Shown piece by piece: positions 33,375 through 36,630 of a stretch of 42,507 nt of DNA. Source of the stretch: Elusimicrobia bacterium RIFOXYA2_FULL_39_19 (lineage in GTDB: Bacteria > Elusimicrobiota > Endomicrobiia > CG1-02-37-114 > XYA2-FULL-39-19); contig MGVC01000013.1 in assembly GCA_001800285.1 (NCBI GenBank), positions 143,175 to 185,681 on the forward strand. The letters are read 5' to 3'. The position numbers were made by a program, and so were the translations under genes. The notes beneath the pieces were generated by a model that was given only the letters and a program-made list of their open reading frames with translations, was not told the origin of the DNA and searched no databases. The first letter of the stretch is position 1. Each line of letters begins with the position of its first letter.

Positions 33375-34178
33375 TTACAGATTGTTTTTTATGTAATCTA
33401 CTGCATTTTTAAATATATGAAACCCGCTTCCTGTTTCATCAAGTTCTTTGGCTGTCCAGGCAGCATGCTGATACTTCATAATGTATCTTTCCGGGTGCGG
33501 CATCATACCCAGCACCCTGCCTGTTTTATCACAAATACCGGCTATGTTTTCCTGCGCTCCATTAGGGTTATAAGGATAATCCGCCAGGTCACCTTCTTCG
33601 TCGCAATACTGGAACATTATTCTGCCGTTTTCTTCAAGCTCATCTGTGATACTTTCGTCTCTTGTAATAAATTTACCTTCTGCATGGGCAACAGGAAGCT
33701 GTATTATTTCCGGCAGGTTTTTTGTCCAGATGTTTGTGGTTTGTTGATTTGAAATTTGAGATTTGAAATTTGAAATTTTCAAATTCACCCACCGGCACTC
33801 AAATTTTGCAGAATCATTAAAACTCAAGGTCTGGGACTGCTCATTATCTATATCAAGCAGGCCTGTTTTTACAAGCACCTGAAACCCGTTGCAAATACCA
33901 ATAATCAGTTTGCCGCTGTCAACGAATTTTTTAAGTTCACCCGAGAGCTGGTAAATCAGCTTATTGGCAAAAACTTTGCCTGCTGAAATATCGTCGCCAA
34001 AAGAAAATCCGCCAGGTATTGCCATTATATTATAATCTGACAGCTTAACCTCTTTTTTAAAAAGCCTGTTAATGTGCACTAAGTCTACGGTTTGCGCGCC
34101 AGCTGTTTTAAACGCATACCCCGTTTCTTTATCACAATTGGTTCCTGCTGTTCTTAATACTATTACTTTTGATTTCAT
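33375..34178 (-). CDS. purQ: FGAM synthase glutaminase subunit PurQ, with a repeat-derived insertion
   Basis: PurQ releases ammonia from glutamine for PurL. It is a class I glutamine amidotransferase with nucleophile Cys in GICNGFQVLV and the His-Glu pair in MMPHPER. The ATG at 34178 gives 267 residues, lies 4 bases after the purL stop and has an AAAGG site. A longer frame to 34214 only adds a basic tail overlapping purL. The protein is longer than usual partly because of an insertion reading about ISNFKSQISNQQTT. It falls between the conserved KFECRWV and IQLPVAHAEGKF segments. The DNA there is a run of near-identical ATTTCAAAT units, and the frame is kept. Confidence 0.95.
   Translation of the reverse strand: MKSKVIVLRTAGTNCDKETGYAFKTAGAQTVDLVHINRLFKKEVKLSDYNIMAIPGGFSFGDDISAGKVFANKLIYQLSGELKKFVDSGKLIIGICNGFQVLVKTGLLDIDNEQSQTLSFNDSAKFECRWVNLKISNFKSQISNQQTTNIWTKNLPEIIQLPVAHAEGKFITRDESITDELEENGRIMFQYCDEEGDLADYPYNPNGAQENIAGICDKTGRVLGMMPHPERYIMKYQHAAWTAKELDETGSGFHIFKNAVDYIKNNL
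33744..33786. repeat. AT-rich repeat cluster inside purQ
   Basis: Overlapping copies of ATTTGAAAT and close variants fill this stretch, with a near-perfect 9-bp palindrome AATTTGAAA/TTTCAAATT at one end. The base composition differs sharply from the flanking purQ sequence. It encodes a Ser-Asn-Phe-Lys-Gln-rich insertion in frame. Similar sequence is a known type of dispersed repeat in other bacteria, which is why a mobile or expanding repeat is suspected. Confidence 0.7.
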
Positions 34179-34182
34179 TTTT

Positions 34183-36630
34183 TTACAGGCCTTTGAGCGT
34201 GCTTTGCCAGGCATCCTTTAAATTATCAGTTTCTTCATCTATTATTACCTGATTCTCAACACCTTTAACTATCAGGTTTTTGCCAAATGTTACACTGCCA
34301 ATTCTGGCAAAAATATTCCCTTTAAGCGCTTTTTCAAATTCCTTTTCTTTTCCCTTTTTAATTTCTACTACAAACCTGCTGTTTGATTCAGAAAATAGCA
34401 GAATGATGTTTTTTTCCGCCGCCGTAAGGCTTTTTGTTTCCGCAGGCACTTTGTTTAAAGCTATTTCCATGCCAATACCACCCGCAAAACACATTTCTGC
34501 ACAGCTTACGGCAAGGCCGCCTTCGGAACAGTCATGACAAGCCGCTACAAGGCTTTTATTCATTGCATTATTTAAGGCTATATAAAGTTTTTTTGCTTTC
34601 TGCGGGTCAAGGCCGGGGACAGTATAATCATTGGTTTTATTTAATACAGAATATTGAGAACCGCCGAGTTCCTGTTTTGTACTTCCTAAAACATATATTG
34701 AATTACCGGAATATTTCAAATCCATGGTTACAGCTTTCCGGACATCATTCATAATCGCCATTGCGGATATCAACAAAGTCATGGGGATGGATTTGCTTTT
34801 ACCTTTTTCATCAATATATTCGTTATAAAGACTGTCTTTGCCTGAGATAAAAGGTGTTTCATATACTTTTGCAATGTCATAACAAGCCTGCGAAGCGCGT
34901 ATTAAACCAGCAAGCTGTTCATTTTTATTCGGGCTGCCCCAGCAGAAGTTATCCAGCAGTGCGGTTTTTTCCAGTCCGGCGCCGGTAGCTACAAGATTTC
35001 TCACCGCTTCATCAATAGCGCCCGCCGCCATAGCATAAGCGTCAATCTTTCCGAAATTCGGGTTTATGCCACAGCTTACCGCAAAACCTCTGTATTTGTC
35101 TTTTATATCTGTTTTCGGATATTCAGCTTCTATGCTTATACGCGGCCAGATTACGCAGGCATCTCCGGGGCCGGCATTTTTACCCTGTAAAGGTTTTATG
35201 ACTGTCTGCCCCTGTACTTCATGATCATACTGGCGGATAATCCATTCTTTACTGCATACGTTGGGCATGGCTAACAAGTTATTAAGCGTTTGCGCATAAT
35301 CTTTTCCGGCAGACTTAACTACCGCTTTTGGTTTTACGCTTTTGTATATCCAGGTTGCATCCAAATGCCTCTTGGGTACACCCTCATGCATAAATTCCAT
35401 AGACAAATCACAGATTTTTGTGCCTTTATAATAACATTCCAGTCTGCCGGTATTGGTAAATTCACCAAGCACGGTAGCCTCTACGTTTTCACTTTCAAAT
35501 AGTTTTATTAACTCTTTGAGTTTATTCTTCGGCACGGAAAGCACCATTCTTTCCTGCGCTTCGGAAAGCCATATTTCCCAGGGTTTTAAACCGGCATATT
35601 TAAGCGGTGCTTTTTCCAGGTAGACTCTTACTCCGCACTCACTGCCCAGTTCTCCTACAGCAGATGAAAAACCGCCCGCTCCGCAATCTGTGATAGCTGT
35701 GTATAAATTCTTATCCCTTGCCTGCAGTATGGTATCCAGTATTTTCTTTTCTACTATGGGGTTGCCTATCTGCACGGCAGACACTTCAGTGTCTTTATCA
35801 AGCTCTATGGAAGAAAAAGTGGCCCCATGTATGCCGTCGCGGCCGGTTCTGCCGCCAACCGCCAGTACAACCTCTCCGGGAGACACTTTCTTAAATGCTT
35901 TATTTTTTGGAATTATGCCGGCTGTGCCGCAGTATACAAGCGGATTAAAAACATAACCTTCATCAAAAAGCACAGCGCCGTTTGTGGTAGGTATGCCCAT
36001 CCGGTTGCCATAATCACGCACACCGCTGACTACGCCTTTCATAATCCTTCTGGGGTGAAGCACGTTACCTGAAATATTTTTATGCGGGTAATCTATAGGG
36101 CCAAAACAGAAAATATCGGTATTCATAACAGGCTTTGAACCCAGGCCGACACCCAATATATCGCGTATTACCCCGCCAATACCTGTTCCTGCTCCGCCAT
36201 ACGGCTCCAGCGCGCTGGGGTGATTATGCGTTTCCACTTTAAAAGCAATACCGTACTTATCATTAAATTCTATAACCCCTGCATTATCCTTAAATACGGA
36301 AACACACCACTTTTTATTGAGGTCTTTTGTAACTTTAAAAACCGTTTCTTTGATAAGATTATCATAGTTTTTTACTGTTTTCTTTTTGCCATCAATTTCA
36401 GTATAGGTTACGGAAGCGGTAAGTGTTTTATGTTTGCAGTGTTCAGACCAGGTTTGCGCTATGGTTTCCAGCTCAATATCCGTAGGATTTCTGCGGATTT
36501 TTATAAAATACGCCTGAACAGCCTTCATTTCCTGCAGATTAAGAGAAAGCAGATTTTTTTTGCTTATCTGTTCAAGCTGGGTATCAGAGACATTTGAAAT
36601 ATTTATAACCGTTGTTTTATTTTCCATCAT
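34183..36630 (-). CDS. purL: FGAM synthase catalytic subunit PurL
   Basis: PurL converts FGAR to FGAM using ATP and ammonia from PurQ. At 815 residues it is longer than Bacillus small PurL (about 740) and shorter than the one-chain E. coli form. An N-terminal linker-like segment (residues about 25-75) contains IELETIAQTWSEHCKHK. The first ATP/FGAR half has KVETHNHPSALEPYGGAG and GRTGRDGIHGATFSS. The second half has CSEGGLAVSCAEM near residue 700. Its start overlaps the purS stop by a few bases (ATGATG). The gene order purS-purL-purQ repeats the domain order of the large single-chain enzyme. Confidence 0.97.
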   Translation of the reverse strand: MMENKTTVINISNVSDTQLEQISKKNLLSLNLQEMKAVQAYFIKIRRNPTDIELETIAQTWSEHCKHKTLTASVTYTEIDGKKKTVKNYDNLIKETVFKVTKDLNKKWCVSVFKDNAGVIEFNDKYGIAFKVETHNHPSALEPYGGAGTGIGGVIRDILGVGLGSKPVMNTDIFCFGPIDYPHKNISGNVLHPRRIMKGVVSGVRDYGNRMGIPTTNGAVLFDEGYVFNPLVYCGTAGIIPKNKAFKKVSPGEVVLAVGGRTGRDGIHGATFSSIELDKDTEVSAVQIGNPIVEKKILDTILQARDKNLYTAITDCGAGGFSSAVGELGSECGVRVYLEKAPLKYAGLKPWEIWLSEAQERMVLSVPKNKLKELIKLFESENVEATVLGEFTNTGRLECYYKGTKICDLSMEFMHEGVPKRHLDATWIYKSVKPKAVVKSAGKDYAQTLNNLLAMPNVCSKEWIIRQYDHEVQGQTVIKPLQGKNAGPGDACVIWPRISIEAEYPKTDIKDKYRGFAVSCGINPNFGKIDAYAMAAGAIDEAVRNLVATGAGLEKTALLDNFCWGSPNKNEQLAGLIRASQACYDIAKVYETPFISGKDSLYNEYIDEKGKSKSIPMTLLISAMAIMNDVRKAVTMDLKYSGNSIYVLGSTKQELGGSQYSVLNKTNDYTVPGLDPQKAKKLYIALNNAMNKSLVAACHDCSEGGLAVSCAEMCFAGGIGMEIALNKVPAETKSLTAAEKNIILLFSESNSRFVVEIKKGKEKEFEKALKGNIFARIGSVTFGKNLIVKGVENQVIIDEETDNLKDAWQSTLKGL

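Follow-up and report, generated by a model that had tools for sequence, protein, structure and literature searches.

The RPE of Rickettsia are palindromes of 100–150 bp with a long stem-loop, and Wolbachia has a counterpart, WPE. RPE are described as lying in frame within conserved genes, at exposed places and at insertion sites common to orthologues (PMC3767692, PMC2229807, PMC10969869). Heptamer repeats have also been described. The TAACTGA direct repeats of marine Beggiatoaceae are described as mostly intergenic, near start codons, with stops in one orientation while the other is open (PMC4679880). Geobacter metallireducens carries four tandem GGGACCG heptamers at 49 intergenic and intragenic places, for which a regulatory role has been proposed (PMC2700814), and the GGGAATC-type heptamers of Xanthomonas and Nostoc are dispersed, mostly as four units, G-rich, quadruplex-forming and under-represented in genes (PMC4692102).

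Here we describe a heptamer, ATTTGAR, that forms an array within purQ on a 42,507-nucleotide stretch of DNA (the window) from a genome of the Elusimicrobiota, class Endomicrobiia (G000; 3.09 Mb in 86 contigs). As described for RPE, the heptamer is dispersed, lies in frame in 11 conserved genes of G000, and shares sites between orthologues. The places occupied by RPE are exposed, and the purQ tract falls in a low-confidence coil of a predicted model. However, this tract consists of tandem heptamers over 32 bases and forms no stable hairpin, and its host is neither Rickettsia nor Wolbachia. The TAACTGA repeats are similar in having a 7-base unit in few tandem copies (4.6 in purQ) at many places (27 arrays), with stops one way and open reading the other, but they are described as mostly intergenic, whereas genic arrays account for 11 of 27 in G000 and for 10 of 11 in G001, a genome of the sister genus. 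The G. metallireducens repeats share the tandem-heptamer format and differ in their unit. The GGGAATC type shares dispersal, while the G-rich, quadruplex and gene-poor traits are its own. Relative to the dispersed heptamers described in these papers, ATTTGAR tracts are more often genic. We found no prior report of an ATTTGAR heptamer in the literature searched, which lay largely outside subscription journals, and searches by the repeat letters and peptides returned only plant papers.

A Heptamer Array in Frame Within purQ

The purQ product matches TIGR01737 with 220.3 bits, above the cut-off of 177.8, and its model is closest in the PDB to the folds of FGAM synthetases and the T. maritima PurQ 3d54_D. 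The conserved protein probably starts at position 34178 (MKSKV). Tandem Repeats Finder reports an array with a period of 7, 4.6 copies, 92% matches and the unit ATTTGAA, which is read in the purQ sense strand as the peptide ISNFKSQISN. The array spans approximately 10 to 14 codons, and positions 33779–33786 are out of register with it (Table 1). Within the window, the array pattern has 4 matches compared to 0.73 expected, a count equalled in 1 of 100 shuffles.

A sequence-only reading of this DNA had placed an in-frame repeat run at this location within purQ, and this is borne out. Its unit, however, is the 7-mer ATTTGAR rather than the 9-mer ATTTGAAAT that had been proposed, and the estimate of approximately 14 extra residues was too high. 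The loop is 8 residues longer than in the PurQ proteins of two genomes from the same family (G001 and G002, with 71% and 69% identity, respectively), and its 31 residues exceed the median of 22 among 65 aligned PurQ sequences by 9. Nor is the segment a palindromic element, as it is a tandem 7-mer, and a 61-base purQ segment folds little better than shuffled versions (z of -1.17; 26 of 200 shuffles fold as well). The proposal of a surface loop holds in part. In the PurQ model based on 65 sequences (mean pLDDT of 91.8), the array coincides with the coil joining strands 127–135 and 158–165, and block 141–150 is low-confidence coil with an average pLDDT of about 60. The exposure of this coil is putative.

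The orientation of the array has consequences for coding. Repeats of TTCAAAT and CTCAAAT are free of stops in three frames, and each gives one constant heptapeptide cycle (FKFQISN for TTCAAAT). Repeats of ATTTGAA and ATTTGAG contain TGA in every frame. Because stops occur in only one orientation, a long genic tract can persist only in the other. Genic arrays are found in the open orientation, or are mixed with short stretches of the opposite one.

Table 1. Positions of purQ, its heptamer array, and sites at which palindromes adjoin heptamer sequences
Feature	Position	Strand	Basis or remark
purQ, glutaminase subunit of FGAM synthase	33375..34214	(-)	ORF, TIGR01737, fold
Heptamer array (ATTTGAR)4.6	33747..33778	(+)	Tandem Repeats Finder; reads TTCAAAT in purQ sense
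Extended-loop codons SNFKSQISNQQTTNI	33729..33773	(-)	Approximately residues 136–150 of the modelled protein; coordinates computed by hand from start 34178
Palindrome and tract sites (hisH, thrC, pyrK, argJ)	G000 C39:24900 (L335), C47:10688 (L053), C75:75676 (L341), C67:10631 (L172)		
CCAGCC-N3-GGCTGG sites	G001 C1:2375 (L405), C12:18317 (L408), C14:25691 (L410), C56:273 (L411)		

The Heptamer Family in the Genome and Its Relatives

Other copies are numerous in G000, both inside genes and outside identified genes. The pattern ATTTGAAATTTGAAAT with up to one mismatch gives 36 matches compared to none for a reversed-pattern control, and a longer pattern with up to three mismatches gives 66 compared to 10. 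When loci were fetched and scored against a periodic template, 27 arrays reached a score of at least 15, a count that leaves out one array under this score and a match in pyruvate kinase. The latter resembles ordinary codons of a conserved motif and was judged by eye to be a chance occurrence.

Eleven of the 27 arrays reside inside ORFs with confirmed families, namely purQ, a 2-oxoacid oxidoreductase alpha subunit (vorB-like), FMN reductase, valS, ksgA, hisH, thrC, a glycosyltransferase, pyrK, a phosphohexomutase and argJ. The remaining 16 are at loci without gene calls, one of them directly preceding an ABC transporter gene. The relatives compared include no genome of the same genus as G000 and accordingly offered no cleanly empty site, a point that counts against the reading as an insertion. 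G001 represents the sister genus. There, 10 of 11 arrays are within long ORFs that have relatives or known families, which for this genus contradicts the proposal that this is a repeat of intergenic type. These arrays are found in argJ, pyrE, valS, a gltA-like gene, two glycosyltransferases, hisH and thrC (argJ, hisH, thrC and the first glycosyltransferase being named from similarity to G000 proteins), plus two in a single ORF that has no Pfam or NCBIfam match and has relatives in G000, G002 and G003.

The exact 16-mer ATTTGARATTTGARAT is present in 7 of the 59 relatives searched, including G000, whereas all genomes of f4, the largest family among them, lack it. The heptamer that dominates in G000 is also seen in G001, and four further families of the class have it as well. 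One genome of the same class, from a family other than that of G000, is G030, which includes a contig of Candidatus Endomicrobiellum guadaloupense (L037 and L076 match without differences where they overlap), whose genus belongs to the Elusimicrobiota, Endomicrobiia. Within G000, purQ and the vorB-like gene have an identical run of 32 bases, in which the A/G variants also follow one order, an identity that is not rare enough to decide between copying and slippage.

Heptamer families with other units were also observed, such as ACTCTTC in G000 (C18:2171-2248, L166) and TAAGCTG-like heptamers in an Omnitrophota genome (G059; L384, L389, L393). Together, these samples indicate a general tendency to form 7-base arrays. 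Separately, viral contigs of IMG/VR (L264–L321) hold 58 stretches with at least three ATTTGAR units, with several on some contigs.

The PurQ Loop in Other Lineages

The purQ genes of both same-family genomes lack the heptamer array. A strict pattern in which ATTTGARATTTG is tied to purQ codons matches a single genome, G000 itself, among 340 from the phylum, although such a pattern overlooks diverged versions. An example is G048, from another family of the class, whose PurQ loop TSQISNFRSQIKN is encoded by a related heptamer run.

Among 110 PurQ genes (30 from whole genomes and 80 named loci, some of which are possibly duplicate records), exact lag-7 runs of at least 9 occur in four, all at stretch positions 400–411. 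Lags of 5, 8, 9 and 10 give no runs in this set, and lags of 6 and 11 give one run each at other positions. The four genes are purQ of G000, two Omnitrophota records (L074 with AGTCGTC and L078 with ACGTCCC) and L030, in which the run is merely one of lysine codons. The Omnitrophota heptamers are unrelated to ATTTGAR. In their own genomes, AGTCGTC is found in purQ only and ACGTCCC in purQ and one other place. This near confinement to purQ makes a local origin likely in those Omnitrophota, which in turn weakens the case for dispersal as the source of the G000 tract.

Tracts in Other Core Enzymes and Their Age

The tracts of thrC, hisH and argJ fall within gaps of their alignments to PDB homologues. 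For hisH, thrC, argJ and a glycosyltransferase, the G000 and G001 tracts occupy one shared loop, whereas the valS tracts of the two genomes are at differing sites. In ksgA and FMN reductase, the tract-bearing loop is not longer than the loops of relatives. Thus, some loops look as if they have been rewritten rather than lengthened, and simple insertion is not a sufficient explanation there.

Fourfold-degenerate sites are identical between G000 and G001 at 349 of 968 positions in ten orthologue pairs, a level that we judge to be close to saturation. Nevertheless, the tracts are near consensus in both genomes. This suggests that they were gained recently in both genera, or that they have been renewed.

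Palindromes Associated with Tracts

A second dispersed repeat in G000 is the palindrome CGYCT-N6-GCAAGACGGR (the GCAAGACGG palindrome), with 52 copies at up to one mismatch. At this threshold there are no copies in G001 or G003, and G002, G048 and G034 have one match each, with control matches in two of these three. Four of the 52 copies, in hisH, thrC, pyrK and argJ, preserve the reading frame and are located within or next to the heptamer tract of the gene, compared to approximately 0.07 expected by position (Poisson tail of 9e-7 under a rough model). Additional copies are found in ORFs that encode DUF1015, PorV-like and Wzy-like proteins. Because hisH and thrC of G001 have the heptamer tract and lack the palindrome, and because heptamer-like sequence flanks the palindrome on both sides in hisH of G000, the palindrome is probably the later arrival at these sites. 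The same palindrome also forms short tandem runs in G000 with a spacing of 34 or 36 bases (C35:18676-19614, L356; C16:35795-35887, L348).

A different short palindrome, CCAGCC-N3-GGCTGG, belongs to the sister genus, where all four copies are in long ORFs and adjoin AAATTTC or AAATTTG. Neither palindrome is present in purQ. The idea that arrays tend as a whole to accompany GC-rich perfect palindromes was considered and rejected (4 of 61 arrays compared to 100 of 2440 random places, with no excess), and the association is seen solely for the GCAAGACGG family and the CCAGCC family of G001. Palindromes are near 4 of 11 genic arrays and 0 of 16 others (Fisher one-sided p of 0.019, for a split made post hoc). 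This is weak evidence that palindromes persist where a loop tolerates them, rather than being targeted to heptamer DNA.

Origin of the purQ Tract

We conclude, with a probability of roughly 0.7 for the reading as a whole, that the purQ segment is a young tract of a dispersed heptamer family, gained in the purQ gene of this lineage at a beta-hairpin loop that tolerates changes in length and sequence. Tracts would arise repeatedly, in either orientation, by copying from other tracts, by 7-base slippage, or by both. The dominance of one heptamer in G000 favors copying between tracts, and the purQ-confined heptamers of other lineages favor slippage. Within genes, a tract would survive only if its sense strand reads TTCAAAT, its total length preserves the frame, and its site is a flexible loop. 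The purQ tract is probably tolerated and putatively functionless, its peptide presumably having no dedicated role, and it behaves in the manner of an RPE insertion without being one.

An explanation that retains appreciable weight, although we hold it to be short of even odds, is that the process was purely local. Slippage on a heptamer-like seed in purQ, for example AATTTGAAA coding N-L-K, could have produced the tract, with the other arrays arising independently in the same manner. The unrelated, nearly purQ-confined heptamers at the PurQ loop of L074 and L078 fit this idea, as do the additional heptamer families of G000 and G059 and the report that, among the longer simple repeats, heptanucleotides are the most frequent class in most genomes (PMC4679880). 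However, independent seeds should yield many different units, and a single heptamer dominates. The 32-base run common to purQ and the vorB-like gene also speaks against independent origins, although it is not decisive. It is improbable, in our estimation, that the tract is a mobile element of REP or RPE type, or the end of one, moved by a dedicated enzyme. The GCAAGACGG palindrome, as a dispersed repeat that sits in frame in genes, and the five Y1_Tnp genes of G000 could be taken to suggest such an element. Yet none of the five Y1_Tnp loci holds this palindrome or an ATTTGAR array, and a link of the Y1_Tnp/REP type was therefore rejected. Moreover, the purQ segment has no stable hairpin, arrays show no excess of GC-rich palindromes, and the tracts vary in length and have no fixed ends.

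Still less probable is a functional tract, whether as a linker or contact under selection in PurQ or as a slippage-driven switch for purine synthesis. Such a role might account for the fact that argJ, hisH and thrC each carry a tract at one and the same loop in both genera, but the PurQ loop of relatives has other heptamers or none, and the same peptide is present in unrelated enzymes. A switch would also break the frame of a core gene with every single unit gained or lost. We give almost no credence to chance or an assembly artefact. The pyruvate kinase match demonstrates that single chance matches exist, but the 36 matches in G000 against none for the control, along with similar tracts in six other genomes, argue otherwise, and at 32 bases the tract is short for an error of assembly.

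Returning to the reading of a dispersed family gained at a tolerant loop, we can speculate about a broader process. Heptamer formation might repeatedly alter the surface loops of core enzymes while leaving the frame intact, with genus-specific palindromes then lodging in the tracts, also in frame. This would constitute a two-layer, ongoing remodelling in which loops such as the PurQ hairpin are reused by different heptamers across phyla. We consider this wider proposal tentative and, on balance, unlikely to hold in full.

Rickettsia and Wolbachia provide the best-known cases in which dispersed repeats have invaded core genes without disrupting the reading frame, and the uncultured Endomicrobiia lineage described here shows a comparable pattern, with a 7-base unit in about a dozen of its enzymes. 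There is also a warning for annotation in that peptides of the ISNFKSQISN type in metagenome proteins are translations of repeats and not conserved motifs. Finally, near-consensus tracts are present at the same loops in two genera whose fourfold sites appear near saturation, and such shared loops make it testable how simple repeats supply loop sequence and which sites tolerate it.
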